Shown here in pieces: positions 5,567 through 19,227 of a stretch of 64,000 nucleotides of DNA. Origin of the DNA: Lentilactobacillus senioris DSM 24302 = JCM 17472 (GTDB taxonomy: Bacteria; Bacillota; Bacilli; Lactobacillales; Lactobacillaceae); assembly GCF_001436555.1 (NCBI RefSeq), contig NZ_AYZR01000004.1:425533-489532 (forward strand), written 5' to 3'. The translations under genes were made by a program, and so were the position numbers. Numbering within the stretch: position 1 is the first letter of the stretch; each line of letters begins with the position of its first letter. Under the pieces are notes generated by a model, which was not told the DNA's origin, did no database searches, and was given only the letters and a program-made list of their open reading frames with translations.

Positions 5567-6256
5567 ATGGCAAAATTAGTATTGATTCGTCACGGTCAAA
5601 GTGAATGGAACCTTTCCAACCAATTTACTGGTTGGGTTGACGTTGATCTTAGTGAAGAAGGCGTTAAGCAAGCTCAAAACGCTGGTAAGTTAATCAAGGA
5701 AGCTGGAATCGAATTTGATTTCGCTTACACTTCAGTATTGACTCGGGCCATCAAGACTTTGCACTACGCACTTGAAGGCTCAGACCAACTCTGGATCCCA
5801 GAAACTAAGACTTGGCGTTTGAACGAACGTCACTACGGTGCTTTGCAAGGCCAAAACAAGAAGGAAGCCGCTGAAAAATTTGGTGAAGATCAAGTTCACA
5901 TTTGGCGTCGTTCTTACGATGTATTGCCTCCACTTTTGAGTGCAGACGATGAAGGTTCAGCAGCTAACGATCGTCGTTACGCTAACCTTGATCCACACAT
6001 CGTTCCTGGTGGTGAAAACCTTAAGGTTACTTTGGAACGTGTTATGCCACTATGGGAAGATGCCATAGCTCCGAAGCTTTTAGATGGTAAAAATATTATC
6101 ATTGCAGCCCATGGTAACTCACTTCGTGCCTTGAGCAAGTACATCGAAGGCATTTCTGATGAAGACATCATCAACCTTGAAATGGCTACTGGTGAACCAG
6201 TGGTTTACGACTTCGATGACAAGTTGAACGTAGTATCAAAGACTAAGCTTGACTAA
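5567..6256 (+). CDS. gpmA: 2,3-bisphosphoglycerate-dependent phosphoglycerate mutase
   Basis: 229 aa, full length for dPGM. '[10 protein letters not shown]' carries the catalytic histidine, '[10 protein letters not shown]' the acid/base region, and '[10 protein letters not shown]' the second active-site histidine. It interconverts 3- and 2-phosphoglycerate in glycolysis. Codon use is strongly biased (GGT, AAC, CGT), as expected for a highly expressed gene. AAGGGG lies 9-10 bases before ATG 5567. Its last codons, terminator and downstream tail recur at several places up to 18,665, which makes this gene the anchor of the accessory region that follows. Confidence 0.96.
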
Positions 6257-6273
6257 TTAAACTGATCGAAATG

Positions 6274-6309
6274 AAAGAGCCCATCCAAAATGGATGGGCT
6301 CTTTTTTTT
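6274..6309 (+). terminator. Terminator of gpmA
   Basis: Stem AAAGAGCCCATCCA paired across a 3-base loop and followed by eight T. Variants of this hairpin recur at 6606, 13874, 15841, 16566 and 18572. Confidence 0.93.
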
Positions 6310-6310
6310 G

Positions 6311-6375
6311 TCGCTAACTTGCGATAACGTGTCATGAAATGGTCACTAGTGGTCACTAAATGGACGCTGATCATT
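6311..6375. repeat. Left copy of the gpmA downstream tail
   Basis: This stretch (CTAACTTGCGATAACGTG..., then GGTCACTAGTGGTCACTAA) recurs with a few changes at 18600-18665, in both places right after a gpmA-type terminator T-run. The pair brackets the accessory region as direct repeats. Confidence 0.75.
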
Positions 6376-6420
6376 TATATTCTGTGTAAAACATTTGACG
6401 GAAGATGAAATTACTCCTAA

Positions 6421-6588
6421 ATGCTTGACAGCAAGCACATTATCATTGTTGTCCACGGTAACTTAAGCAAGTACGTTGAAGGTATTTCTGATGAAGACAT
6501 CATCAACCTGGAAATGGCTACCGGTGAACTAGTGGTTTACGATTTCGCCGATAAGTTGAACGTAGTATTAAAGACTAAGCTTGATTAA
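6421..6588 (+). pseudogene. Decayed copy of the gpmA 3' end (56 codons)
   Basis: In-frame remnant coding for the last part of phosphoglycerate mutase (KHIIIVVHGN, then [17 protein letters not shown], ending KTKLD). It has lost about four codons (SLRA) next to the second active-site histidine and carries several substitutions, such as FADK for FDDK. There is no N-terminal half, so it cannot be an enzyme. It keeps the stop codon and its own copy of the terminator. An ATG at 6421 opens the frame but lacks a ribosome site. Confidence 0.85.
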
Positions 6589-6605
6589 TTAAATCGATTG
6601 AAATG

Positions 6606-6640
6606 AAAGAGCTCATCCAAAATAGATGGGCTCTTTTTTT
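6606..6640 (+). terminator. Terminator belonging to gpmA copy 2
   Basis: AAAGAGCTCATCCA hairpin followed by a T-run; same architecture as 6274-6309 with a few changes. Confidence 0.85.
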
Positions 6641-6679
6641 GTTAACTTTCATAACATATGATGAAAAATATTTAGAGTA

Positions 6680-6737
6680 TTGACGAGCTACTAAAAGTAA
6701 AAGAGGATATTTTATCATAAGATATCCTCTTTGCTTA
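6680..6737. repeat. Hairpin repeat H1, copy 1
   Basis: Contains AGAGGATATTTTA and its near-complement TAAGATATCCTCT around a short centre, preceded by a 'GACGAGCTACTAAAAGTA' block. The same block and hairpin recur at 17228-17291. Read on the minus strand it ends the degraded gene at 6739-7070 and may be a terminator. Confidence 0.7.
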
Positions 6738-6738
6738 G

Positions 6739-7070
6739 CATTTGTAATAAGTGGTGTTATGCCATTTATCATTGTGAGACTGATTGAATTTGATTTTCAT
6801 TTTTTTGCTATTAGTCATACTAACGGTGATGGAATTTTTAATTCCGCCTTTAGGCGCATTATTGATCTGATAGCCTACCAGTCTAAGTCTATAGTGTTTG
6901 CGACTTAGTGACTTATATTTTACCCTAACGGTACTATTAGGGTGAGGATAAAAATAGAAAAGGATTTTTTGTAAAAATGAGCATATGCTCGACTTTTACT
7001 GGTAATTTTATCGTATTTATATATTTTTATACATGAGCGCCACTTAACACGTAGTATTTTTGGAACACCA
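6739..7070 (-). pseudogene. Possible frameshifted small protein gene
   Basis: On the minus strand two frames join around 6950-6970 at an A/T run. The first codes for '..KYDKITSKSRAYAHFYKK' (about 7070 to 6965). The second runs from about 6970 to the stop at 6739 and codes for a basic, Tyr/Lys-rich stretch ending KFNQSHNDKWHNTTYYKC. The second part looks like real protein sequence (no stop in about 75 codons, balanced composition) but has no start of its own. I do not recognise it; the composition resembles C-terminal repeats of lactobacillus surface proteins. It could also be an open stretch by chance. Confidence 0.3.
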
Positions 7071-7515
7071 TTATAAGTCTCTACGACGATAACCCCAATA
7101 GCCAATAATGAATAATGCTATCGTGACCAGGAATGTGTACCAAGATACTGTCCAATCTATACTATCAGATGGTAACGATCATCCCCAATGGAAAGAAACT
7201 AAATTCATAATCCAGTCATCTAACTGAAGTAATTTACCAAACATTAAAATAATAAAATCGAAAATAATTACAGGGTAAATAATGATGGTTGCTTTGGGAA
7301 TCCATCCAGTAAGTACCGATAATAAACCAAAAATAAATAACATTAACGGCCAATACCCAATGAATATTCTGCTGATTGCTGACCATGAAAATGGATCGCT
7401 TAAAGAACTATTTTGACCAATAAACAAACCAAAAGTCATCATGAATAAAGTGATACTTGATGTTAAAACCCCGGTGAGCAAATAACTACTATAAATCCGC
7501 AGACGCGAAATGGGA
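7071..7515 (-). pseudogene. ABC-2 type permease fragment (polyketide/tetronasin exporter-like), with internal stop
   Basis: Only the C-terminal third is present. It begins around 'SRPISRLRIYSSYLL' at 7515, where it abuts IS30-like sequence, and has several membrane helices. In frame, a TGA at 7179-7181 follows 'SFHWG'. Beyond it the frame stays open and codes a convincing family C-terminus (SLPSDSIDWTVSWYTF... GYWGYRRRDL) to TAA at 7071. The gene is thus broken twice, by truncation and by a nonsense codon. Family resemblance to COG3559-type exporters is from memory of the C-terminal motif. Confidence 0.75.
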
Positions 7516-7676
7516 CGTGATTCAATTAGGATTTGGCGTTCGTCAGATCGCCAGCCGGCTTCACCGGAGTCCCAGCACCATTTCTCGCGAATTAAAACGC
7601 GGGTTAACCACCCAGATTGATTCCCAGAAACATCGGTCATATCACTCTCTTAAAAGTTGTCTCAGGAATCAGCTTA
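7516..7676 (+). mobile_element. IS30-family transposase fragment (N-terminal HTH)
   Basis: Plus-strand translation gives 'GFGVRQIASRLHRSPSTISR' then ELKRG, the helix-turn-helix typical of IS30 transposases. Both sides are cut: the DDE domain is missing and flanking sequence changes abruptly, on the left to the permease fragment and on the right to the flavoprotein fragment. The piece is richer in G+C than its surroundings. It marks a rearrangement point that removed the ends of both neighbours. Confidence 0.75.
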
Positions 7677-7810
7677 CATCCACCACAGACGGAATAAGAA
7701 ATATCTTCTCCTTTTTCATAAACTGTAATTTTATTCTTTTCATTGTTTCGCCGAGCCTTAGCCGCGACACTGGTACCTGCCGCAACAGAACCGATAACGA
7801 CGATTTTCAT
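7677..7810 (-). pseudogene. N-terminal fragment of a CoA-disulfide reductase/NADH oxidase-like flavoprotein
   Basis: Starts at ATG 7810 (AGGTGG 5 bases upstream) and codes MKIVVIGSVAAGTSVAAKAR, a Rossmann FAD-binding start, then 'YEKGEDISYSVCG', matching the redox-active cysteine region (SxCG) of this family. After that codon the match stops where the IS30 scrap begins. It lies 9 bases after arsB and was presumably the last gene of the ars operon. An intact, different member of the same superfamily is encoded at 12081-13475. Confidence 0.75.
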
Positions 7811-7819
7811 ATTATCCAC

Positions 7820-9115
7820 CTAACCTAATAATAGTAATGATAAATACAAGCCACACAACGTAATAAATAGAACTGGAATCGTGATGGTAATCCCAATCTT
7901 GAAGTACTGCCCCCAACTAATTTTAACATTTTTTTGGGCTAAAACGTGTAACCATAATAAGGTTGCAAGTGATCCAATCGGGGTGATCTTGGGCCCTAAG
8001 TCGGAACCAATTACGTTGGCATATATCAGGCCCTTACGCACGAGTTCAGAAGCCTGAACCTGATCAATTGATAAAGCATTAATCATAACGGTTGGCATGT
8101 TATTCATTAAGGACGATAGAATCGCTGCAATAAAGCCCATACCGACTGTGCCAATAAAGAGCCCTTTTTGGGCAATGTACGTAATAGCAGATGCAATTAA
8201 AGTGGTGATACCGGCATTTTGTAGTCCATAAACAACAACGTACATGCCGATTGAAAAGAAGACAATATTCCAAGGAGCACCCTTAATAATTGCTTTAGTT
8301 TCAATCGCAGCACTACGATTAGCGACTAACAAGAAGATGACAGCAATTGTAATCGCGATGAAAGAGACGGGAATCTTTAAAAAACTACCAATGAAGTAGC
8401 CCGCTAATAGAGTGATCAAAACGATCCAAGAAAATTTGAATAAGAATGGATCAGTAATCGCCGTTTTAGGGTCAGCAACTTGGGAAACATCATAGTGTCG
8501 TGGTAATGTTTTTCTGAAATAAAGGTATAAAACGATAATGCTAGCTATGAGTGAAAACAATGTTGGGATTAACATGTGCAATGCATATGTTGAAAAACTA
8601 ATACCAAAAAAATCAGCAGAAACAATGTTGACTAAATTACTAACAACTAAAGGTAATGACATTGAATCGGCGATAAAACCACTAGCGATAATGAATGGAA
8701 ATACTTTTTCCTCATCAAAGTTTAGGGCCCGGACCATCGCTAAAACAATGGGCGTCAAGATTAGTGCGGCACCATCGTTAGCAAAGAGTGCAGAAACAAA
8801 GGCCCCTAAGACTGAGATTAAGACAAACATGCGAATGCCATGGCCATCAGCAATTCTAGCCATGTGTAGCGCACACCATTCAAAGAAGCCAACTTTATCA
8901 AGAATTAGCGAAATCATGATAATGGCGATAAATGATAATGTTGCGTTCCAAACAATACCCGTAACCGTCCAAACATCTTTAAGCGTTACAACTCTAAATA
9001 GTAGGGCCAAACCAGCTCCTACCATGGCTGACCAGCCAATTGATAAGCCCTTAGGTTGCCAAATAACAAATAAAAGTGTTAATAAAAAAATGCTAACTGC
9101 AAATGTAACTTGCAT
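7820..9115 (-). CDS. arsB: Arsenite efflux permease ArsB
   Basis: 431 aa, about twelve membrane segments, length as in classical ArsB. '[18 protein letters not shown]', '[15 protein letters not shown]' and '[22 protein letters not shown]' are hallmark ArsB/NhaD-superfamily signatures (the ND and NNMP turns). It extrudes arsenite or antimonite, alone by membrane potential or as a pump with ArsA, whose gene lies 48 bases upstream. AGGAGG precedes the ATG at 9115. Last intact gene of the minus-strand ars operon. Confidence 0.95.
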
Positions 9116-9163
9116 AATATCCTCCTATGTATCGAGAAAGCCGTTCGCCTTCTCAATTAAAAT

Positions 9164-10873
9164 TTATGCTTGCCAGCTAATGACGTTGTATTGCCCGGCA
9201 GACAATTGATCAACCTTATTAATCCAAGCAGTTTCGTTGTTTGCACGTGATGCTAGAATCGGATTATTAGTGTGCGTGGCTAATAAACTTTGATTAATAA
9301 CCCACCAAGAATGGGCCATATTAGCGCGATCCAAATCATCAGCTAAGCGCATTGATTCATAGACCGGAGTTGTCTCTGGTAAAGTGACCATGACCACTTC
9401 CGTTTGTCTAGCGTCTTGGAGTTTTGGTAGTAAATTGACGATTGATTCAGGAACGTCTCCAGACGTCCGTTCTACTTCCTTGGCATAGCTTTGGCTGGAA
9501 TCTAATAGGAGTAATGTATGCCCGGTTGGTGCAGTATCAATGACGGCAATATCACAATCATCGTCGGCTACTAATTCTGCAAAAGCGCGAAAGACTGCAA
9601 TTTCTTGAGTACAAGGCGATTGTAAATCTTCTTTGACATAATCAACATCAGCTGGTGACATCGTCAAAGCAGCTTTAGCAATCACTTCATTTTGATAATG
9701 TTTTAATTCTTGGGCTTCATCAATGTGACTTAATTTAATATTGGTAGTGTCAGTTAATATTTCGGAGATATGATCGGCTGGATCAGTTGATGCAAGATGA
9801 ACACGTTTACCACGTTTAGCGAGTTCAGTTGCGATTTTAATGGCAATTGAAGTTTTACCAACACCGCCTTTACCCATCGTGAAAATAAGTTTCTTGTTAG
9901 TATTGACGAAATCATCAATCATTAAACCAAATTCGGGTAGATTGGTGTCCCTATTATTCGTAATTTTAGTAATCGGTTGTGACTTCTTTAATAAGTTTCT
10001 AACATTATCAATCCCAGCAATATTGTAAGCCCGTAAGGGAATTTGATAACTTTTAAGTTGTTTTAAAGTATCAGGCATCCGGACCAAATCAGCTTGTTGA
10101 CGGTCGTAGAAAATTTGAGAGACAGCGTCGGTGGCTGTTTCAAAAACACCATTTAAAATTAATTTTTGATTGGTAATGCCGAGATTTTTAAGCTCAGTTG
10201 AAGCGCGATCGGCCTCAAGTAACGGGGCAAGCTGTGGACGGGTAACCATTATGAGGGTTGTTAGCGTACCATCATTTAGGGTTGCCATCGCTTTTTCATA
10301 AACGGCCTTGCGGTCACCCATACCTGCTAGTTGACCTAAGCAAGAAGCCCCTTGTTGATTTTCATCTAAGTAGCCACTCCAAGCTGATGGTAGTTGTAAC
10401 AAACGGAGTGTGTGACCAGTAGGGGCAGTATCGAAAATGATTGTATCGAAGCTGTTGGCGACATCTGGACTGGTTAAGAAATTAGCAAATTCATTAAATG
10501 CGGCAATTTCAACGGTACAAGACCCGGATAGCTGTTCTGCCATATTTTCAATTGCAGATTCAGGTAAAACACCACGATAAGGTGCGATTACCGATTCTTT
10601 ATAGTCTTCAGCAGCCGTGACTGGATCAAAATTAGCAACACTTAAACCTGGGACTTCTTCGATTTGAGTTGCTTGGTTTGTTAGTTCTCGTTGAAAAACA
10701 TCTTGTAAATTACTAGCTGGATCAGTACTAACTAACATGACCCGTCGACCATTGTCAGCCAGCTGGATGGCAGTTGCGCAAGCTGAGGTTGTTTTGCCAA
10801 CGCCGCCTTTTCCCGTGAAGAATAAGTATTTTGTGTCGAGCACTTCATTCGGATTATATAAGTTAAAATTCAT
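9164..10873 (-). CDS. arsA: Arsenite-translocating ATPase ArsA (two-domain)
   Basis: 569 aa with two homologous halves, each with a GKGGVGKT P-loop (residues 21-29 and 334-341) and a 'DTAPTGHT' switch motif. Cysteines at 119 (SGSCTVEIAAF), 178 (GASCLGQL) and 421 (SPCTQEIAVF) correspond to the three As(III)-binding cysteines of E. coli ArsA (113, 172, 422), so the metal site looks complete. It docks on ArsB and powers arsenite export with ATP. Start ATG 10873 lies 24 bases after arsD, consistent with ArsD handing metal to ArsA. Confidence 0.96.
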   Translation of the reverse strand: MNFNLYNPNEVLDTKYLFFTGKGGVGKTTSACATAIQLADNGRRVMLVSTDPASNLQDVFQRELTNQATQIEEVPGLSVANFDPVTAAEDYKESVIAPYRGVLPESAIENMAEQLSGSCTVEIAAFNEFANFLTSPDVANSFDTIIFDTAPTGHTLRLLQLPSAWSGYLDENQQGASCLGQLAGMGDRKAVYEKAMATLNDGTLTTLIMVTRPQLAPLLEADRASTELKNLGITNQKLILNGVFETATDAVSQIFYDRQQADLVRMPDTLKQLKSYQIPLRAYNIAGIDNVRNLLKKSQPITKITNNRDTNLPEFGLMIDDFVNTNKKLIFTMGKGGVGKTSIAIKIATELAKRGKRVHLASTDPADHISEILTDTTNIKLSHIDEAQELKHYQNEVIAKAALTMSPADVDYVKEDLQSPCTQEIAVFRAFAELVADDDCDIAVIDTAPTGHTLLLLDSSQSYAKEVERTSGDVPESIVNLLPKLQDARQTEVVMVTLPETTPVYESMRLADDLDRANMAHSWWVINQSLLATHTNNPILASRANNETAWINKVDQLSAGQYNVISWQA

Positions 10874-10897
10874 CAGTAAACCATCCTTTTTAGTTTA

Positions 10898-11266
10898 TTA
10901 TTCACAGCAATTAGTTGTATTGTCACCACAGCAAGCATTAGAAGATTGTTCAACAAAATAGGCACCGGTAAATTCTGATAGTTCCGCCAAAGTTGGGTAG
11001 TCACCCGATTTAACAATGACGTTATCAACACGTAAAATTGGTAAAACAGCATTACCTTCTTGTTGAATAAGCGCTAAAATATCCGGATTTTGAGCAAATG
11101 CGTCCGGCGTACTATTTAGGTTATAGCGATAAGCATCAAAGGTATCAGTATTTTTAACCATGGTATTAAATGCAGCAGTCATTAACATTAAATTTTTATC
11201 GACACTTGGACCACAAACACCAGTATTACAACATAGTGCTGCTTCAAATAATTCTACTTTTTTCAT
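10898..11266 (-). CDS. arsD: Arsenical metallochaperone/repressor ArsD
   Basis: 122 aa from the ATG at 11266, chosen because GGAGG lies 8 bases upstream and the family starts 'MKKVELFEAALCC'; the frame is open 7 codons further. Cys12, Cys13 and Cys18 form the As(III) site used to deliver arsenite to ArsA. Two further vicinal pairs (CC near 112 and 119) are also present, as in E. coli ArsD. Between arsR2 and arsA in the operon. Confidence 0.94.
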   Translation of the reverse strand: MKKVELFEAALCCNTGVCGPSVDKNLMLMTAAFNTMVKNTDTFDAYRYNLNSTPDAFAQNPDILALIQQEGNAVLPILRVDNVIVKSGDYPTLAELSEFTGAYFVEQSSNACCGDNTTNCCE

Positions 11267-11332
11267 AATAAACTCCTCCAATATCATATCAACACATTTA
11301 AATGTATCTATTTATTGTATAAAAAATATAGC

Positions 11333-11617
11333 CTAATTAGCTATTTTTTCTAATAACAATGATTTAATCTGTTCATCAAGGCTGTCTACAAAATCAACAT
11401 TTAATGAGTAATGTTGCCACTTGCCAGATTTTCGGGCTATGACAATATTTGCCTCAATTAAGACTTTCATGTGGTGCGAAAGTGTTGGCTGTGAAAATTC
11501 AAATTGATCTAATAAATCACAAGCACATTTTTCCCCAGCAGATAATAAATCAACGATTTTAACTCGATTTTTATCGGATAAAGCCTTAAAAATTTTAGCC
11601 AGTTGGTTATAGTTCAT
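11333..11617 (-). CDS. arsR: ArsR/SmtB family metalloregulator (second copy)
   Basis: 94 aa winged-helix repressor. 'GEKCACDLLDQF' is the alpha-3 As(III)-sensing CxC motif and 'SQPTLSHHMKVL' the recognition helix. The start at ATG 11617 is chosen by the family start (MNYNQLAKIFKAL) and GGAAGG upstream; the open frame begins 16 codons earlier. A good promoter (11651-11679) lies between this gene and the upstream arsR, so this copy heads the arsDAB transcript. About half its residues match the other ArsR. Confidence 0.93.
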   Translation of the reverse strand: MNYNQLAKIFKALSDKNRVKIVDLLSAGEKCACDLLDQFEFSQPTLSHHMKVLIEANIVIARKSGKWQHYSLNVDFVDSLDEQIKSLLLEKIAN

Positions 11618-11650
11618 GTATACACCTTCCATACATTGATGTTTATCTAT

Positions 11651-11679
11651 ATAATATACTTTCAAAATGTTTTTGTCAA
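11651..11679 (-). promoter_or_regulatory. Promoter of arsR2-arsD-arsA-arsB
   Basis: Minus strand TTGACA (11674-11679), 17 bases, TATTAT (11651-11656). It sits 34 bases before the start of the second arsR and just downstream of the first arsR stop. The AT-rich spacer/-10 region is a likely ArsR target. Confidence 0.75.
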
Positions 11680-11692
11680 AAGTAAATATAAT

Positions 11693-11995
11693 TTAAAATA
11701 GTGGATGGCAGACACAGATTTCCTCAACTTGTAACAGTTGATGTGTAAATTCAGGGAAACTTGTTATAAATTTTGAATTCAATGAATAGTGCTGCCACTT
11801 GCCATCTTTTTGTGCATCTACTATCCCCGCAGTTTGTAATACCTTCATATGATGAGAAAGTGTTGGTTGGGTAAAATCAAAATGATCTAAAATATCGCAG
11901 GCACACATTTTACCGCAAGATAACATGTCGATAATTTCAAGGCGACTTGCGTCGCCCATTGCTTTGATAACCATAGCATAATCTGTATAATTCAT
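11693..11995 (-). CDS. arsR: ArsR/SmtB family metalloregulator (first copy)
   Basis: 100 aa. 'GKMCACDILDHFDFTQPTLSHH' spans the metal-sensing CxC and the DNA-recognition helix. A C-terminal 'EEICVCH' adds another Cys-x-Cys not present in the second copy and could extend metal binding. It is transcribed away from the FAD oxidoreductase at 12081. A perfect dyad (12024-12043) between them is the obvious operator. Its own stop lies just before the promoter for the second arsR. Confidence 0.93.
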   Translation of the reverse strand: MNYTDYAMVIKAMGDASRLEIIDMLSCGKMCACDILDHFDFTQPTLSHHMKVLQTAGIVDAQKDGKWQHYSLNSKFITSFPEFTHQLLQVEEICVCHPLF

Positions 11996-12007
11996 TTTTT
12001 CTCCTCA

Positions 12008-12043
12008 TTGACACATAGTTAATCGTCTATATATAATATAGAC
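12008..12043 (+). promoter_or_regulatory. Promoter and dyad operator between arsR1 and the FAD oxidoreductase
   Basis: Plus strand TTGACA (12008-12013), 18 bases, TATAAT (12032-12037). The 8-base perfect arms GTCTATAT/ATATAGAC (12024-12043) overlap the -10 box. Position and symmetry fit an ArsR operator that shuts off the plus-strand gene and probably the divergent arsR. Confidence 0.75.
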
Positions 12044-12080
12044 ATCCATATGTTATCAAATAAATCACAGGAGTCTATTT

Positions 12081-13475
12081 ATGACAGTTAAAAATGAACA
12101 ACTATTGATAATTGGCGGTAGCGACGCTGGTATTTCAGCGGCAATTCAAGCTAAAGAGAGTGAGCCTACACTACAAGTTAAAATAATCCTTGCAGACGAA
12201 TACCCTAATTTATCCATTTGTGGTTTTCCATATGCTGCTAGTCGAGAAGTACCAGATTGGCATTCGCTTTCTCACCGTGGGCTTAAGGAGCTAGAAGCGC
12301 TTGGAATTGAGTTTGACTTAAACACTTTAGTTAACTCAATAGACGCAGAAAATCATCTCGTGTCAGGTGTTCGATCGAATGGTGCTGTTACTTATAAATA
12401 TAATAAATTGATAGTTGCCACGGGAGCAATTCCTAAAGTAGACGCTTTTCAAGGTTTTTCATTTAATGATACCCAAGAAAACAATAGTAAGATTCACGTT
12501 TTACACACAATGTCTGATTATTTGTCGTTAGATACAGCACTAAACCAAGCTAAAAACACCGCCATCATCGGGGCTGGGTATATCGGTGTTGAGATGGCCG
12601 AAGCAATGGCACGACGAAAATTAAACGTGACGCTATATCAACGTAGTAATGAAATTCTTTCCACAGTGGAAAATGAATTTGGATCTATGGCTCACCAGGA
12701 ACTAACACAAAATCGAGTAACAGTACTGACTGACCGCACTATTTTGAGTGTTGTTAGTTCTGATACTAGTGTAAAAATTAAATCTACAGATTTGGGCAAT
12801 ATCACTGATGAACGATCGTTTGATACGGTCTTAATTGTTACTGGAGTTCAGCCCAATACGCAATTATTAGAAGCAGCTGGTGCCAAGACTGGTGTGGCCG
12901 GAGCAATTTCAGTTGATGAATTCATGCATACGACTTTGCCAGATATCTGGGCCGCCGGTGACTTGGTTGAGACTGACCATAGGTTACTTGGAAAAACATA
13001 CCTACCCTTAGGAACTACTGCACACAAACAAGGCCGGATAGCCGGATTGAATGTCGTGGGGCAGCGACGCCGGTTTAGGGGGATCGTTGGAACCCAAGTT
13101 ATAAGGGTTTTCAATTTAGTTATTGCTAGAACTGGGCTATTGCCTAAAGAAGCAGAAAACGCTGGTTTTTCTACTTTATCCAGTACAAGTACAGTGTTCG
13201 ACCATAACTCATATTTTCCAAATGCAAGTAAAATCACCATTAAATTAACTGCTGACAAAGAAAGCGGATTGCTACTTGGTGCACAGTTAATTGGGAACTA
13301 TGGAAGTGAGATTGCAAAACGAAATGATATTTTTGCAACCGCAATTTTCAATAAAATGACTATTAATGATCTAGACGACTTAGACTTATCATATTCACCG
13401 CCAATTGCGTCACCGTGGGACCCTGTTCAACAGGCAGCACAAGATTGGGAAGCTGTGTTCGATAAATCTAAATAA
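12081..13475 (+). CDS. FAD/NAD(P)-dependent oxidoreductase of the CoA-disulfide reductase/NADH oxidase family
   Basis: 464 aa. The FAD Rossmann motif is GGSDAGISAA near residue 12, the redox-active cysteine lies in 'LSICGFPYAAS' (about residue 47), the NAD-binding motif is GAGYIGVEMAEA (about 170), and 'IWAAGDLVE' is the second FAD site. It is divergent from arsR1 across a shared ArsR-type operator, so it is probably arsenic-induced; thiol or disulfide reduction would help keep arsenite available for efflux. Substrate is not determined. AGGAG lies 8-9 bases before ATG 12081. Confidence 0.85.
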   Translation: MTVKNEQLLIIGGSDAGISAAIQAKESEPTLQVKIILADEYPNLSICGFPYAASREVPDWHSLSHRGLKELEALGIEFDLNTLVNSIDAENHLVSGVRSNGAVTYKYNKLIVATGAIPKVDAFQGFSFNDTQENNSKIHVLHTMSDYLSLDTALNQAKNTAIIGAGYIGVEMAEAMARRKLNVTLYQRSNEILSTVENEFGSMAHQELTQNRVTVLTDRTILSVVSSDTSVKIKSTDLGNITDERSFDTVLIVTGVQPNTQLLEAAGAKTGVAGAISVDEFMHTTLPDIWAAGDLVETDHRLLGKTYLPLGTTAHKQGRIAGLNVVGQRRRFRGIVGTQVIRVFNLVIARTGLLPKEAENAGFSTLSSTSTVFDHNSYFPNASKITIKLTADKESGLLLGAQLIGNYGSEIAKRNDIFATAIFNKMTINDLDDLDLSYSPPIASPWDPVQQAAQDWEAVFDKSK

Positions 13476-13765
13476 GCTCATTAAAGCATCTAATATAACA
13501 AAGCATCACCTATGTAAGAACTTAGAAGTTGTCTAAAATCTCTTGAGTAATAAAATACTAAAAACGCTAAGATGCCAATTTACATACGAACGCTATGATG
13601 ATGACCTTAGCCTTTATGTCAGTTCTATTGCAGCGCTTTTGAAAATATCAAACAGTTTCTAACCAGCGGCAGAAGTAGCCTTAAAACGTTTGCCAATTGG
13701 GAGGTAACTGGCGCTATTGAGATCCAGTACGGAGAATATGGAGAACGGCATTAAAGATCTCGTAG
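13476..13765. other. Gene-free stretch between the oxidoreductase and gpmA copy 3
   Basis: No frame longer than about 30 codons with a start and ribosome site on either strand. Short stretches are protein-like (13585-13680), as in a decayed transposase, but I could not place them in a family. Nothing else is supported here. Confidence 0.4.
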
Positions 13766-13768
13766 AGA

Positions 13769-13854
13769 TCAACCTGGAAATTGCTACTAGTGAACCATTG
13801 GTTTACGACTTCGATGACAAGTTGAACGTAGTATCAAAGACTAAGCTTGACTAA
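13769..13854 (+). pseudogene. Decayed copy of the gpmA 3' end (copy 3)
   Basis: 28 in-frame codons, [20 protein letters not shown] then VVSKTKLD, match the very end of GpmA with three changes. The nucleotide match to the parent gene is nearly exact from 13801 on and continues into 'TTAAATTGATCAAAATGAAAG' and a terminator. No upstream gpmA sequence is seen before about 13765. Confidence 0.85.
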
Positions 13855-13873
13855 TTAAATTGATCAAAATGAA

Positions 13874-13908
13874 AGAGACCCTCTCAAGGTGAGAGGGTCT
13901 CCTTTTTA
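13874..13908 (+). terminator. Terminator belonging to gpmA copy 3
   Basis: GAGACCCTCTC-AAGGT-GAGAGGGTCTC followed by CTTTTTATT. Same position relative to the gpmA stop as the parent terminator, but with a changed stem sequence. Confidence 0.9.
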
Positions 13909-14017
13909 TTAAAATTCATTTGTATAGTATCAGTAATTATTTAAAATCAAATTACAACCAATTTATAAATTTCTTGTTTAAACTAGTTATAGAAAAAGGT
14001 TTAAGGAGGAATTTTTT

Positions 14018-15151
14018 ATGTTAGCTTGGACACCAACAACTAAAGATTACTATAATAAATTAAATCGTTTGCGGAAAAGCCCGGATTTTAAAAAGGATAA
14101 AAACAACGTTATGACTAGGGTTGTTTCAGATCTTTCAGTAGTTGCAAAATATTCTGTTGATGATTTTAATCTCCACTTCATGCAAGATAACGGCGGACCA
14201 TATGCTCCTGAATCTGAAATTATGAAACGATTTAAGGGTGTTAAACCCGATAGTCCTTCGGCAAGATTTTGTTACCAATGGCGTGATCATATGGGATCTA
14301 TGGGGGTGGATATTTCTGATGGAGTAACTACCAGCAAGATTTATTCTGATAAAAATCAGATTCCTATTAGTGTTTACACGCCAGAGCTTAAAAATCCTAA
14401 TGAAAAGCTGGGAGCTTTTATTGCCTATCATGGTGGTGGTTGGATTGGCGGTAACGTTTTGGTTAATGAAAATTTTTGTAAATACATCGCCCAAAAAGCT
14501 CATTTGCGAGTTTTCAACGTGGATTATAGATTTGCTCCTGAGTATCCTGAATATACGGCCACTGATGATTGTTTTGAATCCCTTAATTTCATCGTGGAAA
14601 ATGCTGATAAGCTACATGTCGACACCAATATCGTTGTGGTATATGGGGATAGTGCAGGCGGGACCATTGCCGCTGCAATAGCTTATATGGATCGAAAAGC
14701 CGGCCATAACTATGTTACTCATCAAGTAATGTGTTACCCGTGCGTTACCTTAGATAAGGAGACCAATGACCAGATTGCATGGCCAGAATCTAAATATCAT
14801 TTAGACAGTTTTATGCAAGCTAGATACCAAAAAGATAGTATCTTTTCTGATAAAGGGTTACCGGCAATTATAGATGTTTATATTAATGGTGGCGATACTA
14901 AGGATCCAAGATTTTCACCGTATAATATGGCGGACCAAGATTATAAAAATATGCCGAAAGCTTTTATTGCTACAGATGAATTTGATCCCCTAAGACCGAC
15001 AGGATATGCTTATGCTAAAAAGTTGGCTGCTAACGGCGTTTCTACATACTATTCTAATTATCGGGGAATGACGCATGCCTTTTTAGATAAGTTTGGGATT
15101 TTTCCACAAGGCCAAGAATTTGCGGATCAGGTAGCAAAATGGATTAACTAA
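14018..15151 (+). CDS. Alpha/beta hydrolase of the hormone-sensitive-lipase esterase family
   Basis: 377 aa. 'YHGGGWIGGN' is the oxyanion-hole HGGG motif, 'YGDSAGGTIAAA' the nucleophile elbow (GDSAG), 'ATDEFDPLRPTG' supplies the acid, and 'GMTHAFLDKFG' the histidine, so the triad is complete. It hydrolyses carboxyl esters, probably small or medium acyl chains in the cytoplasm (no signal peptide). AAGGAGG lies 8 bases before ATG 14018. It stands alone between gpmA copies 3 and 4 as cargo of the accessory region. The roughly 120-residue N-terminal extension before HGGG is longer than in minimal members. Confidence 0.88.
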   Translation: MLAWTPTTKDYYNKLNRLRKSPDFKKDKNNVMTRVVSDLSVVAKYSVDDFNLHFMQDNGGPYAPESEIMKRFKGVKPDSPSARFCYQWRDHMGSMGVDISDGVTTSKIYSDKNQIPISVYTPELKNPNEKLGAFIAYHGGGWIGGNVLVNENFCKYIAQKAHLRVFNVDYRFAPEYPEYTATDDCFESLNFIVENADKLHVDTNIVVVYGDSAGGTIAAAIAYMDRKAGHNYVTHQVMCYPCVTLDKETNDQIAWPESKYHLDSFMQARYQKDSIFSDKGLPAIIDVYINGGDTKDPRFSPYNMADQDYKNMPKAFIATDEFDPLRPTGYAYAKKLAANGVSTYYSNYRGMTHAFLDKFGIFPQGQEFADQVAKWIN

Positions 15152-15338
15152 ATATAGTTGACTTAAAACAGCCTAGGATTGCTAAATCACAGGTTGTTTT
15201 TATTTTAATTAAATCACTAAGATAAATTTGTAATTATGATATTTCCTTTGTCATAGAATTTGAAGCCTTAGAGGCGAGTTTCTTCACAACTACTTACTAA
15301 TAACTTAAAATGTGTTATTTTTGGATGAGAGGTGTTGT

Positions 15339-15710
15339 ATGAATAAAAAAAGTGGTTATCAATATTTCGGAGTATTAGTTTTTGTCATACTGTGCTTTGC
15401 AGGTGGATATATGTATTTAAATTCTGACATGTATACGGTGAATCAATTGAATACTCAGATGAATAACATGATTAGCAAAAAAGATTATAAGCAAATGAAA
15501 TCCGTTGCCAATAATCATGATACATATCTATTTCTAAGAAACTTGTCTAGTAAAGATAAAGTTTATGACACCTCAGATTTTCAAGGCGGATCTAACGAGA
15601 ATGTGTATTACGTTACTGTAGTAAACAATAAAAACCTGGATGTCTATATGCGTAAAGCGGGGATGGCTAGTTGGGAGATAAAACATGTCGGAAAACAATC
15701 TATGTCTTGA
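15339..15710 (+). CDS. Small membrane-anchored protein of unknown function
   Basis: 123 aa from ATG 15339, chosen over GTG 15312 because GAGAGG lies 6 bases upstream. One N-terminal hydrophobic helix (residues 9-26) is followed by a hydrophilic extracytoplasmic part with no cysteines. No family recognised; the shape resembles small anchored lipoprotein-like or DUF proteins of lactobacilli. It ends just before gpmA copy 4, so it is another cargo gene of the island. Confidence 0.55.
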   Translation: MNKKSGYQYFGVLVFVILCFAGGYMYLNSDMYTVNQLNTQMNNMISKKDYKQMKSVANNHDTYLFLRNLSSKDKVYDTSDFQGGSNENVYYVTVVNNKNLDVYMRKAGMASWEIKHVGKQSMS

Positions 15711-15718
15711 TTAAGTAA

Positions 15719-15822
15719 ATCGAAGGCATTTCTGATGAAGACATCATCAACCTTGAAATGGCTACTGGTGGTACGACTTCGATGATAAGTTGAACGTAGT
15801 ATCAAAGACTAAGCTTGACTAA
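15719..15822 (+). pseudogene. Decayed copy of the gpmA 3' end (copy 4)
   Basis: Nearly exact match to the last about 110 bases of gpmA ([17 protein letters not shown]..), then a deletion of about ten bases that shifts the frame before 'YDFDDKL', then the exact gpmA tail to the TAA at 15820-15822. The low divergence suggests it is younger than copy 2. Confidence 0.85.
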
Positions 15823-15840
15823 TTAAATTGATCAAAAGAA

Positions 15841-15875
15841 AAGAGACCGCCTCGATGTGAGGGGGTCTCTTTTTA
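15841..15875 (+). terminator. Terminator belonging to gpmA copy 4
   Basis: AAGAGACCGCCTC/GAGGGGGTCTCTTTTT hairpin after the gpmA remnant, close in sequence to the copy 3 terminator. Confidence 0.85.
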
Positions 15876-15950
15876 CTGAATATAAGTGAAATTGGATTTG
15901 TTAGCTTGATTATAAGGTGTTGAGGCCAAAAATTAAATAAGTCAAAATTA

Positions 15951-16145
15951 CTAAGAAGTGGGATGAAATAGCGTATCCACCGTTGTTTCTAGCTGTTGCG
16001 CTAAACTAAAGGCCAATTTTAAGGTTGGATCATACTTGTCATTTTCAATGGCATTAATAGTTTGGCGACTGACGTTACAGAGTTTAGCCAGTGTATCTTG
16101 AGAAATACCAGCCTGTTTACGTAAAATGCGAATTTGATTTTGCAA
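15951..16145 (-). CDS. XRE-family small transcriptional regulator
   Basis: 64 aa, almost entirely one HTH_3 domain: 'LRKQAGISQDTLAKLCNVSR' then QTINAIENDKYDPTLKLA. This is the compact YozG/XRE type that often pairs with a small membrane protein. Its start is 2 bases after the stop of the membrane gene at 16148-16450, so the two are co-translated, and the pair may be autoregulated. Target unknown. Confidence 0.88.
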   Translation of the reverse strand: MQNQIRILRKQAGISQDTLAKLCNVSRQTINAIENDKYDPTLKLAFSLAQQLETTVDTLFHPTS

Positions 16146-16147
16146 TG

Positions 16148-16450
16148 TTAATCACCAAGCTTTTTAGAGGTAGTATGTAACTCTAGCAAAAAGATAATGG
16201 CGCTAATCAGTAATAAGTGAAAGGGCTTCAAGTTAGTGGGGGTTTTACTGAGAAAGATACTAATAATTTGACCAATCACGTCAAGAACCAGTAGTCCCAT
16301 GAGAATATAAAAAGTGTTGGCCGAAGCCGTCATGATAATTTGTTTGCGGCGTTCGTCACCCTGTTTACTGATGGTTCGAAACATAGTGATTATGGCACCA
16401 AACGAAACGATTAAAAAAAATAATACAAAAATTAAAATAGCGATTTCCAT
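16148..16450 (-). CDS. Small membrane protein paired with an XRE regulator
   Basis: 100 aa with three hydrophobic helices (residues 2-24, about 43-68, 78-92) and a basic loop 'KQGDERRKQIIMTASANTF'. The ERRKQI loop plus first helices resemble DUF2178/DUF3796-type proteins encoded next to small XRE regulators. Function unknown. GGAGG lies about 9 bases upstream of ATG 16450. First gene of a two-gene minus-strand operon. Confidence 0.7.
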   Translation of the reverse strand: MEIAILIFVLFFLIVSFGAIITMFRTISKQGDERRKQIIMTASANTFYILMGLLVLDVIGQIISIFLSKTPTNLKPFHLLLISAIIFLLELHTTSKKLGD

Positions 16451-16565
16451 AATTGGGCCTCCAAATGTAAAAAGTATTTGACTATTAGAGTATAGGAAAT
16501 TAAATTTTTAATGTCAAATAAGTTTGACATATTTTAGAGTAACCAAAACATAGAAAATTTAATAA

Positions 16566-16600
16566 AAGAGACCGTCTCAATGTGAGAAAGTCTCTTTTCT
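16566..16600 (+). terminator. gpmA-type terminator, copy 5 (hairpin only)
   Basis: AAAAGAGACCGTCTCAATGTGAGAAAGTCTCTTTTC resembles the copy 3, 4 and 6 terminators (same AATGTGAG loop as copy 6), but no gpmA coding remnant precedes it. Confidence 0.7.
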
Positions 16601-16624
16601 AATAATTATAGCTGTGAATAGTCT

Positions 16625-17125
16625 TTATTTAGTTTGTTGTTCTGCCAGCTTAACCATGACGTTATAGAGTTGATCCAAGTAACGCTTTAATTCTGGTCCT
16701 TGTTTAAAGCGAGAATAAATACGTTCAGCATTTAGGCAGAAGACAGCAATATCTTTCTGTTTTTTGTCTGGAACGGGATAATCCATGACGACTAGTTCGT
16801 CTTCACCGAAGAACATTGTGTCGTTCTTGTAAGTAATTGGTTGGTGAAAAACGTCTTCGATTCCGTTCAAGAAAGCTTGGTTAAACTTAGTGTAGTTACC
16901 AATCGGATGTAGATTGTAGCCACCATAAATAGCGCCATCGTCGAATTCGGCAATAAGTAATTGTTGTCCGCGTGATTTGCGTTCGGACAAAAAGGCGGTA
17001 AAACTGATAGGATCATTGGTGTTACTGGTATGAATTGGTTGATCCTGCCAAGTCAGTGTAGTATCTGCTCCTGAGTTGGCCATGGCTGCTTGGCGTTCTT
17101 TGCGTTTTCGGGATCCTTTTCCCAT
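16625..17125 (-). CDS. Conserved hypothetical protein with basic N-terminus
   Basis: 166 aa from ATG 17125 (AAAGG 9 bases upstream; the ATG three codons earlier is too close to it). A short basic start 'MGKGSRKRKERQAAM' resembles small basic or SEC-C-like starts, followed by a globular, slightly acidic domain with no cysteine cluster and no membrane segment. No family recognised. It lies between a gpmA-type terminator and the plasmid remnant. Confidence 0.6.
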   Translation of the reverse strand: MGKGSRKRKERQAAMANSGADTTLTWQDQPIHTSNTNDPISFTAFLSERKSRGQQLLIAEFDDGAIYGGYNLHPIGNYTKFNQAFLNGIEDVFHQPITYKNDTMFFGEDELVVMDYPVPDKKQKDIAVFCLNAERIYSRFKQGPELKRYLDQLYNVMVKLAEQQTK

Positions 17126-17227
17126 GATAATCATCCTTTCAGAATTAATAGCTCACTATTGAGTGTAAACTATTCAATTAAGCAACTCAAATTGAACCGA
17201 AATATCTCCGAATCCTTTGGAATGATT

Positions 17228-17291
17228 AGAGTAGTGACGAGCTACGAAAAGTAAAAGAGGATATCTTATCATAAGATATCCTCTTTTCTTA
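17228..17291. repeat. Hairpin repeat H1, copy 2
   Basis: Perfect 13-base arms AGAGGATATCTTA/TAAGATATCCTCT with a 3-4-base centre, preceded by 'GTGACGAGCTACGAAAAGTA'. Nearly identical to 6680-6737. Here it abuts the truncated mob gene at 17294. Confidence 0.75.
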
Positions 17292-17293
17292 TA

Positions 17294-17413
17294 CGAGCGT
17301 TCCGTATCAATATCTTTGTTTGAATGATTGTCAGTTAACCGTTGATTATGATTACCCATGCCGACTAAATTTCCAGCTTTCATCTTTTGCATTCTTGCGA
17401 CTAAATAACTCAT
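17294..17413 (-). pseudogene. Truncated plasmid mobilization relaxase (MobV/Pre), first 40 codons
   Basis: [20 protein letters not shown] then [20 protein letters not shown] is the conserved N-terminus of Pre/Mob relaxases of rolling-circle plasmids (the [15 protein letters not shown] motif is diagnostic). GGAGG precedes the second ATG by 7 bases. The match stops at 17294, where hairpin repeat H1 begins. The catalytic histidine motif region and all the rest are lost, so this is a relic. Confidence 0.88.
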
Positions 17414-17497
17414 CATAAGTCCTCCATTCTTTGGTTTGGCGAATTAGCGGTAAAAAAACGTATCTGGGGTTTTGAAGTTAGGATTAAAAAAATATAA

Positions 17498-17525
17498 GAA
17501 AAGCCCCATTTAAGGGGCTTTTTTA
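17498..17525 (-). terminator. Terminator after cadD
   Basis: AAAAGCCCC-ATTTAA-GGGGCTTTT hairpin with T-runs on both strands, starting 2 bases after the cadD stop. Confidence 0.9.
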
Positions 17526-17526
17526 T

Positions 17527-18153
17527 CTATAAAATAAAGTTTAGAAAAGTCTCTATCGCGCCACTTTCATACATGATGTATAGTCCAAGTGGAATGAATA
17601 CTAAGGGAACAACGATTCGCTTGTATTTTTCAATTGTCTCGGATATTAACGGAATAGAGGATAGCACCCGACTAAGCTCGCAAAAGATAATTATGCCGAT
17701 TGCAAACACAAGCAACGCCACGAGGGTCTGTGCCCAATCTAACGAAGCAAAATAAGGTATATAGATACCTAAATTATCTCCGCCAGACGCAATTGTCAGC
17801 AATGTAACTGTCCAAAACAGTTGATTTGCCTTGCTTTGTTCTAATCTTTCAATAATTTCTTCCTCTTCCTCTTCTTCTTCCTCACCTTCTCCAACAATTG
17901 CAAAGCGAATCCCTAAATAGATAGGGATTAAACCAAGCAGTCCAACCATCCATGCTTCAGGCACGAAATTGACGACATAAGCAGCAACTAAACTCACCCC
18001 TACAAGTAAGCCCGTGCCTAGATATTGCCCCGCATAAATATGCCATTTCTGTTTATTCTGTGATAGCTGTGCAAATAAAATAATCAAAACAATTAAATAA
18101 TCGATACTGGTGGAAATATAAACACCAATAGCAGATATGATTGTCTGTCCCAT
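17527..18153 (-). CDS. cadD: Cadmium resistance transporter CadD
   Basis: 208 aa with five to six membrane helices and the CadD family start 'IGVYISTSIDYLIVLIILFA'; 'ASGGDNLGIYIPYFA' carries the conserved GGDN. It exports cadmium (LysE superfamily). The central loop carries a run of nine glutamates (EGEEEEEEEEE) that could bind cations, more acidic than I expect for the family. AGGAGG lies 6 bases before ATG 18153. No cadX/cadC regulator is adjacent. A 24-codon leader frame with its own ribosome site precedes it, and the gene sits between a pMV158-type oriT and a mob remnant, so it is plasmid-derived. Confidence 0.9.
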   Translation of the reverse strand: MGQTIISAIGVYISTSIDYLIVLIILFAQLSQNKQKWHIYAGQYLGTGLLVGVSLVAAYVVNFVPEAWMVGLLGLIPIYLGIRFAIVGEGEEEEEEEEEIIERLEQSKANQLFWTVTLLTIASGGDNLGIYIPYFASLDWAQTLVALLVFAIGIIIFCELSRVLSSIPLISETIEKYKRIVVPLVFIPLGLYIMYESGAIETFLNFIL

Positions 18154-18183
18154 AAAAAACCTCCTGTATTAGTCAGTAATAAA

Positions 18184-18258
18184 TCAGCAGATTTTAGGGG
18201 AGCACAGACACATTAATTTAGCTATCGCTAGTGGGTAATGCCGGACGTAAGAAAGCAT
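18184..18258 (-). CDS. Candidate 24-aa leader peptide upstream of cadD
   Basis: GAGGAGG 6 bases before ATG 18258 opens a frame MLSYVRHYPLAIAKLMC ending CSPKIC, stop TGA at 18184-18186, 30 bases before cadD. The ribosome site is as strong as that of cadD itself. The 3' half has three cysteine codons, so translation could respond to metal or cysteine. The match of an ideal ribosome site with a short closed frame is seen; the regulatory role is inference. Confidence 0.45.
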   Translation of the reverse strand: MLSYVRHYPLAIAKLMCLCSPKIC

Positions 18259-18318
18259 TTTACTCCTCCTCAAAACGTAGTTACAAAATGGTTTCTAACT
18301 GGAATTCGGTGATTACTT

Positions 18319-18358
18319 CCAAGTAAAGTATAACCCACTATACTTTACTTCGTAAAGG
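18319..18358 (-). other. oriT / recombination site A of pMV158-type (MobV) plasmids
   Basis: On the minus strand CTTTACGAAGTAAAG is followed by TATAGTGGGTTATACTTTAC, the two inverted repeats and core of the pMV158 oriT (TATAGTGTG/TTATACTTTA, nick after GTG). One core base differs. It normally lies just upstream of mob; here the cadD unit separates it from the mob remnant by about 0.9 kb. The site also contains TATACT, so it may serve as a promoter reading toward cadD. Confidence 0.85.
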
Positions 18359-18360
18359 TG

Positions 18361-18500
18361 GGCTCGCCGAGGGGTCTTGCAGACGGATCTGTCGGCTCTT
18401 TTGAGCCGAGTATCAGCGCACCCTATGGTGCAATTAGCTGATACCTGTTTGACGTTTTGCTGCCCTACTTTTTTAAGTAGGTATGCAAACCTCAAACTAA
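18361..18500 (-). other. Hairpin-rich plasmid sequence, possible single-strand origin
   Basis: On the minus strand a large stem GTATCAGC...GCTGATAC encloses GCACC/GGTGC, followed by CGGCTC-AAAA-GAGCCG, then the oriT. Clustered hairpins next to oriT are what single-strand origins of rolling-circle plasmids look like. I could not match a named sso type, so this is inference from structure and position. The long open frame across it is not a gene. Confidence 0.45.
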
Positions 18501-18527
18501 AATAAAAGCCCCCTTCGACTTGTGCCA

Positions 18528-18569
18528 TACCCCTAAAGTTGAAGTAAAAATACTTTAACTTTAGGGGTA
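18528..18569. repeat. 19-bp-arm hairpin at the junction of plasmid sequence and gpmA-type repeat
   Basis: Left arm 18528-18546 (TACCCCTAAAGTTGAAGTA), loop AAAA, right arm 18551-18569 with a single mismatch. It lies two bases before the gpmA-type terminator half at 18572, exactly where plasmid-like sequence ends. Confidence 0.7.
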
Positions 18570-18571
18570 CA

Positions 18572-18665
18572 CCCCAATGTGAGAGGGTCTCTTTTTTTGA
18601 TAACTTGCGATACCGTATGATGAAATGGTCACCAGCGGTCACTAATTTGACGCTAATGAGTTGAT
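18572..18665. repeat. Right boundary repeat: gpmA-type terminator half plus downstream tail
   Basis: CCCCAATGTGAGAGGGTCTC then seven T, then a tail (TAACTTGCGATACCGTATGATG..., GGTCACCAGCGGTCACTAA) matching 6311-6375. The 5' arm of the hairpin has been replaced by plasmid-like sequence. With the left copy it brackets the accessory region. Confidence 0.75.
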
Positions 18666-19154: not shown

Positions 19155-19185
19155 AATGATTCTCCTTTCAAAATTAATTGTTCTT

Positions 19186-19216
19186 ACTATAATCCCTAAA
19201 GTTGACTCTAAGGCAA
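19186..19216 (-). promoter_or_regulatory. MerR-type promoter of the flavodoxin gene
   Basis: Minus strand TTGCCT (19211-19216), 19-base spacer, TATAGT (19186-19191). The spacer holds the dyad CCTTAGAGT-CA-ACTTTAGGG (7 of 9 pairs), the over-long spaced layout that MerR activators untwist. Confidence 0.75.
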
Positions 19217-19227
19217 TAAAAATAAAT

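Follow-up and report, generated by a model that had tools for sequence, protein, structure and literature searches.

We analyzed the region behind the gpmA gene in a stretch of 64,000 nucleotides of the Lentilactobacillus senioris DSM 24302 genome, here called the window. The region is very probably a stack of integrase-free units, similar to cis-mobilizable elements (CIMEs), left by site-specific integration into gpmA. Judged from alignments with related genomes, the truncated gpmA 3' ends that recur in the region represent attachment-site (att) scars of this integration, and a clade of tyrosine recombinases found at gpmA in relatives is the likely enzyme. The original prediction had proposed repeated insertion at gpmA, in which every element brings along a copy of the target's end, and the comparison supports it.

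The window genome (G000) comprises 1.57 Mb in nine contigs and belongs to the same genus as Lentilactobacillus kosonis NBRC 111893 (G010). Three truncated copies of the gpmA 3' end follow the intact gene (Table 1). They share its orientation and match it above chance, which bears out their original description as decayed gpmA ends. Copy 1 is the best preserved, and its start at gpmA nt 489 adjoins the start most common among copies in relatives (nt 481). About 0.35 kb without a gene separate the core in gpmA (6047) from copy 1 (6400). Copies 2 and 3 are cut short, so not every unit in the window has two att sites. Copy 2 starts, at 13768, where the plasmid DNA of the arsenic (ars) block stops; a tblastn extension of this copy back to codon 186 was rejected because plasmid identity extends to 13777.

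Across 24 Lentilactobacillus genomes, those compared with the window genome being of other species, 19 contain a single gpmA 3' match, and neither of the outcomes named as speaking against the original prediction was seen. The other five (G000, G010, G011, G019 and G023) contain more. Truncated copies were then compared in 21 loci, picked for holding gpmA copies or the recombinase. Leaving out seven full genes, two copies at contig edges and one gene at a locus edge, a single script identified 26 truncated copies. The start lies between nt 470 and 495 of gpmA in 16 of them, and exactly at nt 481 (codon 161; window position 6047) in eight, which come from seven genomes of five genera: G010, G011, Liquorilactobacillus sucicola, Lactiplantibacillus herbarum, G142, G186 and G251 (two copies). 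Apart from the one gene cut by a locus edge, no copy starts between nt 60 and 469. A naive binomial calculation gives 6e-17 for the common start, a value that is overstated, since related copies are counted and loci were included on account of their copies or recombinase.

Alignment of the copies, which the original prediction had recommended, reveals a common core at codons 161-165 of gpmA, 210 bp ahead of the gene end. The core, CC(A/T)(C/T)T(A/C)TGGGAAGA, is nearly whole in nine of 14 aligned copies, with a different first base in G101_1, and decayed in the other five (G010_b, G023_a, G023_b, G101_3 and the window copy). Upstream of the core the match to gpmA stops; in G019, contig C34 (L041) ends in a gpmA copy from nt 470, where the match begins 11 nt earlier. 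The pre-core flanks of the two G251 copies are alike, as are those of two G101 copies. The common start and the core have the layout of an attachment core within a gene, with the final 210 bp of the gene moving along with the element. Between the gpmA genes of the window genome and G019, 12 differences fall within the 60 sites of nt 486-545 and five within the other 630 (Fisher 2.8e-10), a cluster consistent with a foreign stretch inserted at the core. In G101 (L068), three truncated gpmA copies stand in a row behind a recombinase gene (11296, 13723, 15850), an accretion in a different genus that parallels the one in the window.

A full-length tyrosine recombinase (P0001; PF00589) is encoded 5 kb behind gpmA in L. 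kosonis, and G011 retains a C-terminal remnant, 81% identical to P0001, between gpmA and a gpmA copy. A search of 301 genomes of the family with P0001 yielded nine relatives in eight genomes (E ≤ 1e-60), and a scan of named genomes pointed to L. kosonis, Levilactobacillus parabrevis, L. sucicola (G268) and L. herbarum (G297). The merged set comprises 11 loci, a 37% relative from G182 being left out. In ten of these loci, gpmA sequence accompanies the recombinase or its remnant. The gpmA gene itself is on the contig in eight (G010, G011, L. parabrevis, L. sucicola, L. herbarum, G142, G251-C34 and G101), and truncated copies occur without a full gene in two (G251-C25 and G186). The contig of the 11th locus, G280, ends ~190 bp past the recombinase, and its first 2.5 kb lie outside the fetched stretch. 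In seven genomes of the genus, all five P0001 match rows at 42-100% identity fall in gpmA islands and all 25 rows at 22-34% fall elsewhere. In a tree, rooted for drawing only, a branch with support of 100/99 has the gpmA-type recombinases and that of G182 on one side and ten further recombinases of the genus on the other. Five loci encode two recombinases, the second mostly in an inner group, except in L. parabrevis. The islands of relatives combine a Phage_integrase domain with a core common to gpmA and the element end, as expected of integrative elements that use tyrosine recombinases. From its sequence relationships and location, the P0001 clade is likely the responsible enzyme.

Whether insertion was site-specific or homologous (Campbell-type) had been left open in the original prediction. 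The fixed start in five genera, the core and the recombinase clade decide for the former, and repeated integration of plasmids bearing gpmA fragments is very unlikely. Plasmid DNA did enter the region, since the ars and cadD cargo derives from plasmids of lactic acid bacteria (LAB), but homologous exchange does not predict copies that mostly start at one fixed point. All 199 plasmid records matching GpmA codons 161-229 are below 80% identity, with annotated gpmA genes and very large replicons among the best 20, and two plasmid stretches related to the ars block hold, by annotation, no gpmA fragments. Phage records matching these codons number 17, at 37-62% identity, and all are unannotated. 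In relatives, the P0001 clade is located between gpmA and a truncated copy of its end; among phage and plasmid records, relatives of P0001 are all below 60% identity (27-32% in the best 40 rows). None of 20 pattern-matched stretches of viral contigs encodes a P0001 relative.

Additional gpmA 3' ends occur at a second locus of the window genome (C3:310414-310606 and C3:314900-314944), around the riboflavin genes ribDEAH. This locus lies between yebC and a LacI-family gene (by Pfam) that we take to be ccpA. The stretch with ribDEAH between gpmA 3' remnants spans C3:310414-315031 (10415-15031 of L036), and a third gpmA-like terminator is visible by eye just ahead of yebC. The ccpA-yebC interval holds little in G002 and G023 and an esterase gene, among others, in G011; none of these three genomes matches gpmA in this interval. 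The G019 contig that carries the rib operon (L039) begins and ends with gpmA sequence. We read the ccpA-yebC interval as a secondary integration site, with cargo apparently exchanged between both loci.

Alternatively, insertion sequences or illegitimate recombination could have shuffled gpmA ends and their terminators, with the recombinase as a passenger. The copies at the second locus, an IS30 fragment adjoining the ars block and a block (16558-18551) bounded near terminators rather than cores point this way. This explanation is highly improbable: it accounts neither for the fixed start and core nor for the tie of one recombinase clade to gpmA in ten of 11 loci. Tandem duplication of gpmA followed by deletions that spared the 3' ends would suit the single orientation of the window copies, but it is hardly credible given the eight copies that start at one nucleotide in five genera, the gap in starts between nt 60 and 469 and the recombinase clade at the gpmA site, and the common start at nt 470-495 argues against it. 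The inspected loci contain no tandem near-full gpmA copies.

Several observations weigh against site-specific integration at gpmA as the origin of the region. Ten of the 26 truncated copies, including two of the three in the window, start off the core (nt 496-633), which tandem duplication would accommodate. The gpmA mosaic is unclean: nt 546-690 agree again with G019 (one difference), and the G019 and G011 genes agree closely from ~nt 391 already, so an exchange at the core was not simply one of the whole end. The ars block is inconsistent with delivery by the recombinase. Profiles detect no recombinase or backbone gene in the window island (window 1-22000), in agreement with the earlier statement that no integrase remains, and none in the second locus or the fetched G019 and G023 loci; the Pfam matches of the window-region proteins examined include no integrase, and by eye there is no excisionase in any of these loci. 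The direct repeat of the gpmA tail, described below, was not found in recombinase loci of other genera except L. parabrevis. The phage and plasmid matches listed include no convincing phage attachment site (attP). A weak motif ~41 bp before the core reaches 9/12 positions in six of 14 copies, as did two of 2,000 resampled sets; it was picked after the fact and serves as a lead only.

Site-specific integration would explain the restored target gene as follows. The element would carry its own last 69 gpmA codons, a terminator and arm sites, thereby restoring gpmA, and the displaced gpmA end would remain as a scar on the far side of the element. The donors may be islands resembling the staphylococcal cassette chromosome (SCC) but equipped with tyrosine recombinases. 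In the window lineage, the recombinase would have been lost and later arrivals added in tandem, and pieces of LAB plasmids with ars and cadD would have been built in by other means.

Table 1. Features of the gpmA region, in window coordinates.
Feature	Position	Strand	Evidence or remark
gpmA, intact target gene, 229 aa	5567..6256	+	last 69 codons beyond putative crossover core
Putative crossover core CCACTATGGGAAGA (attB-like), gpmA nt 481-494	6047..6060	+	common start of truncated copies, alignments
gpmA stop codon followed by terminator (6274-6309) and a tail that contains the direct repeat GGTCACTAGTGGTCACTAA (6341-6359)	6256..6376	+	
Truncated gpmA copy 1 and terminator, from gpmA nt 489	6400..6666	+	79% over 285 columns, E 1e-60
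IS30-family transposase fragment beside ars block	7518..7644	+	98.4% to IS30 genes on lactobacillus plasmids
Arsenic block: arsB, arsA, arsD, two arsR, FAD (flavin adenine dinucleotide) oxidoreductase	7683..13777		Pfam, plasmid matches
Truncated gpmA copy 2 and terminator, from gpmA nt 604	13768..13907	+	89%, E 1e-38
Esterase unit, CDS (coding sequence) 14018-15151	13944..15151	+	Abhydrolase_3; 81.6% over 1,205 nt to G011
Small membrane or secreted protein, end running into copy 3	15312..15710	+	by eye
Truncated gpmA copy 3 and terminator, from gpmA nt 561	15703..15874	+	84%, E 2e-43
XRE regulator and membrane protein pair	15951..16450	-	HTH_3; 98% and 85% to same G019 pair
Block common to G019 contig C8: genes 16625-17134, 17174-17416, cadD 17527-18153	16558..18551		PF03596 (cadD)
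Lone terminator (16566-16600)	16561..16605	+	same repeat family as gpmA terminators
Half terminator and GGTCAC tail	18572..18665	+	tail 18574-18662: 78%, E 3e-14
Flavodoxin gene, cargo of putative further unit	18687..19259	-	PF12682
Truncated MerR gene, identity with G019 resumes	19244..19818	+	92.8% to G019 from 19244

The terminators and the tail behind gpmA change the borders of the region. The original prediction had placed the gpmA terminator and tail again at 18572-18665 and taken 6274-6375 and 18572-18665 as the bracketing ends of one island. The part of 18572-18665 that matches the gpmA region is the tail with its GGTCAC repeat; of the terminator only the right half is present, and it belongs to the GAGACC class, whereas gpmA is followed by the GAGCCC class. 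The repeat GGTCACTAGTGGTCACTAA occurs at two places in the window, 6341 (no mismatch) and 18627 (two mismatches). In a scan of 28 loci with up to four mismatches, both L. kosonis loci together contain seven matches, the G023 loci four, and G019 C4, G019 C8, G011 and the stretch behind L. parabrevis gpmA one each; the L. parabrevis recombinase is the nearest to P0001. At the single-copy gpmA of G012, G002, G013 and G001 it is absent at this threshold. One L. kosonis match and the G011 match stand before a gpmA copy and not behind a terminator. For this branch of recombinases, the repeats may represent integrase arm sites at the left element end. Since the L. kosonis repeats mostly follow gpmA-type terminators, 18572-18665 is read as the putative left end of another unit rather than as the right border. 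The region continues to ~19244, where the MerR gene, complete in G019, is cut off in the window.

The lone terminator had been counted as one more divider between cargo units. Its membership in the repeat family stands, and a separate insertion is not required. In G011, a gpmA 3' copy (from nt 481) continues through such a terminator into a relative of gene 16625-17134, and the window terminator may therefore be an ancestral gpmA 3' end. Alternatively, it may have been brought by the cadD block, because the block common to G019 C8 begins inside it. Gene 16625-17134 (169 aa; no Pfam or PHROG match) is next to a gpmA-type terminator not only in the window but also in G011 and G019. G019 contains one identical copy of this gene, plus broken or diverged ones. 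A 71-nt repeat with a palindromic core (6667-6737 and 17221-17291, 92% between copies) occurs at these two places in the window genome and at one in G019 C8 among the fetched loci.

The ars block, previously regarded as an att-bounded unit, is instead plasmid DNA joined into the region. It consists of two plasmid-derived pieces joined at 11702, which match LAB plasmids at 98.8% (7683-11703) and 98.6% (11702-13777); among the best 15 of 503 records, identity ranges from 98.3 to 98.8%. The IS30 fragment forms one edge and copy 2 (13777) the other. Beyond arsB, an N-terminal FAD oxidoreductase fragment (7637-7819) is cut beside the IS30 fragment, and plasmid NZ_CP029967 holds a longer annotated FAD oxidoreductase at the equivalent place. 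LAB plasmids also match the cadD part (17291-18521), at 92-98% identity in the best eight of 63 rows. By these matches, the ars and cadD pieces are joined plasmid DNA that is not bounded by cores. The whole block 16558-18551 agrees with G019 C8 at 98.65% over 2,001 columns and the collinear flanking blocks at 83-93%, suggesting a recent transfer between species; G019 holds in addition an 80.8% version of the first gene of the block. In G019 C8 (L040), a GH43 gene and a transporter-like gene lie between a gpmA 3' end and this common block. A copy of the gpmA end precedes the XRE/membrane pair in G019, as copy 3 does in the window. The G011 counterpart of the window esterase sits between ccpA and yebC. 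The small protein 15312-15710 has no Pfam match.

The donor island of L. parabrevis encodes a family A DNA polymerase (PolA), a 162-aa protein, a P4-family/DUF5906 helicase, an excisionase-type helix-turn-helix protein, two tyrosine recombinases flanking a DUF1643 gene, and a Mor-like regulator. Across the 11 recombinase loci as fetched, profiles matched PolA in five, the DUF5906 helicase in six, a Cch-type helicase in one (G101), DUF1643 in nine, DUF960 in two and RadC in six. These counts describe rather than test the backbone, because most seed sequences come from the same loci; the Pfam matches are independent of these seeds. In G010, DUF1643 is an 82-aa piece without a Pfam match, and the G011 and L. 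herbarum loci contain the recombinase only, with no backbone profile match. Models of defence systems matched eight of ten cargo proteins, one at 0.005 only, including restriction enzymes, AbiJ and a reverse transcriptase type. No relaxase, coupling protein, VirB4 or conjugation family was detected among the donor proteins scanned (Pfam and NCBIfam, part of the open reading frames). The G182 island (L069) combines PolA, a DUF5906 helicase, an excisionase-type gene and one tyrosine recombinase, the 37% relative, and its 10.2-kb contig contains no gpmA. The combination is thus wider than the gpmA target.

A relation to SCC is suggested by the backbone. Among 398 genomes of the class, the element polymerase matched two (E ≤ 1e-20), both of one genus, which encode, in this order, the polymerase, the small protein, a DUF5906 helicase and two serine recombinases, together with DUF960 and DUF1643. 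The best models for these serine recombinases are CcrA and CcrB, at E values of 2e-94 to 8e-149, below the cut-offs. In BLASTP between a gpmA island and a Ccr-bearing element, the polymerases match at E 5e-28 and the helicases at E 2e-56, and hhalign between both kinds of element gave 100% for the helicase profiles and 78% for the small proteins. For the helicase of G101, the Cch1 model of SCC gives E 2e-48, a match below its cut-off. No Ccr match (E ≤ 1e-3) was obtained among the open reading frames of the 11 loci as fetched; both Ccr-bearing control elements matched. In searches of the PDB, the polymerase retrieved ordinary DNA polymerases only and the small protein nothing useful. No SCC-type backbone is present in the window. 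It is reasonably probable that the donors form an SCC-type cassette branch in Lactobacillaceae, in which one or two tyrosine recombinases take the place of ccr and target gpmA. Such cassettes would move defence systems and metabolic genes across genera and collect at gpmA, with ccpA-yebC as an example of the secondary sites where they would pick up or drop chromosomal genes, among them the esterase and the riboflavin operon.

Searches of the literature listed no paper that describes integration into gpmA in lactobacilli; these searches did not address SCC-like elements with tyrosine recombinases by name. Core, enzyme and traces define a gpmA hotspot in a food- and gut-associated bacterial family, and islands behind gpmA become recognisable even after the loss of all mobility genes. 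If the link to SCC is true, the replication and accessory module of SCC operates with a different class of recombinase, and the origin and modularity of SCC become comparable outside staphylococci.

Replacement of the 3' end of a metabolic gene by an incoming element is known from e14 and phage 21 in icd, which are phage-type elements of E. coli. SCC inserts at the 3' end of rlmH, and composite islands occur. Several donor islands share with SCC the replication module (PolA, small protein, DUF5906/Cch helicase) as well as DUF1643 and DUF960; they differ from it in carrying one or two tyrosine recombinases, in lacking a Ccr match and in targeting gpmA, and are for these differences in recombinase and target not filed as SCC. 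A DUF5906 protein, ccrC, DUF1643 and hsdR are tabulated close together in a paper on SCC (tabulated section of PMC10821479). Strand-biased circularizing integrative elements, as outlined in PMC10214605, resemble the donor islands in having a pair of tyrosine recombinases that flank another gene; those elements are described for Gammaproteobacteria and have inverted repeats and a 6-bp footprint, whereas here 210 bp of a gene are duplicated and the middle gene is DUF1643. In the integrase modules of pPDL2 from Sphingobium, a phosphoglycerate mutase reading frame follows int in both modules; there, the attB tested is the 3' end of a seryl-tRNA gene, and the frame of 206 residues is not a target-gene end (modules described in PMC3516476).

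A further precedent concerns fda, a glycolysis gene. According to the sections of PMC7563491 and PMC5704250 that describe CIMEs and microCIMEs of Streptococcus salivarius, integrase-free units bounded by att copies stand in tandem at the 3' ends of fda, rpsI, rpmG and rplL; microCIMEs comprise 130-220 bp without genes, CIMEs 1.2-13 kb, and cadmium resistance lies mostly inside CIMEs. The window region, too, is a tandem of integrase-free units behind a housekeeping gene, and it has lost its own integrase and transfer genes. It differs in its target, gpmA, in the crossover 210 bp ahead of the gene end, in donors without a conjugation family among the scanned proteins, and in a gene-less unit of ~0.35 kb that is somewhat longer than the microCIMEs (PMC7563491). 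The accretion of integrase-free units behind a housekeeping gene is of an already known kind; what appears new, judging from the literature searched, is gpmA as the target together with its core, the clade of recombinases, and an SCC-like backbone combined with tyrosine recombinases.

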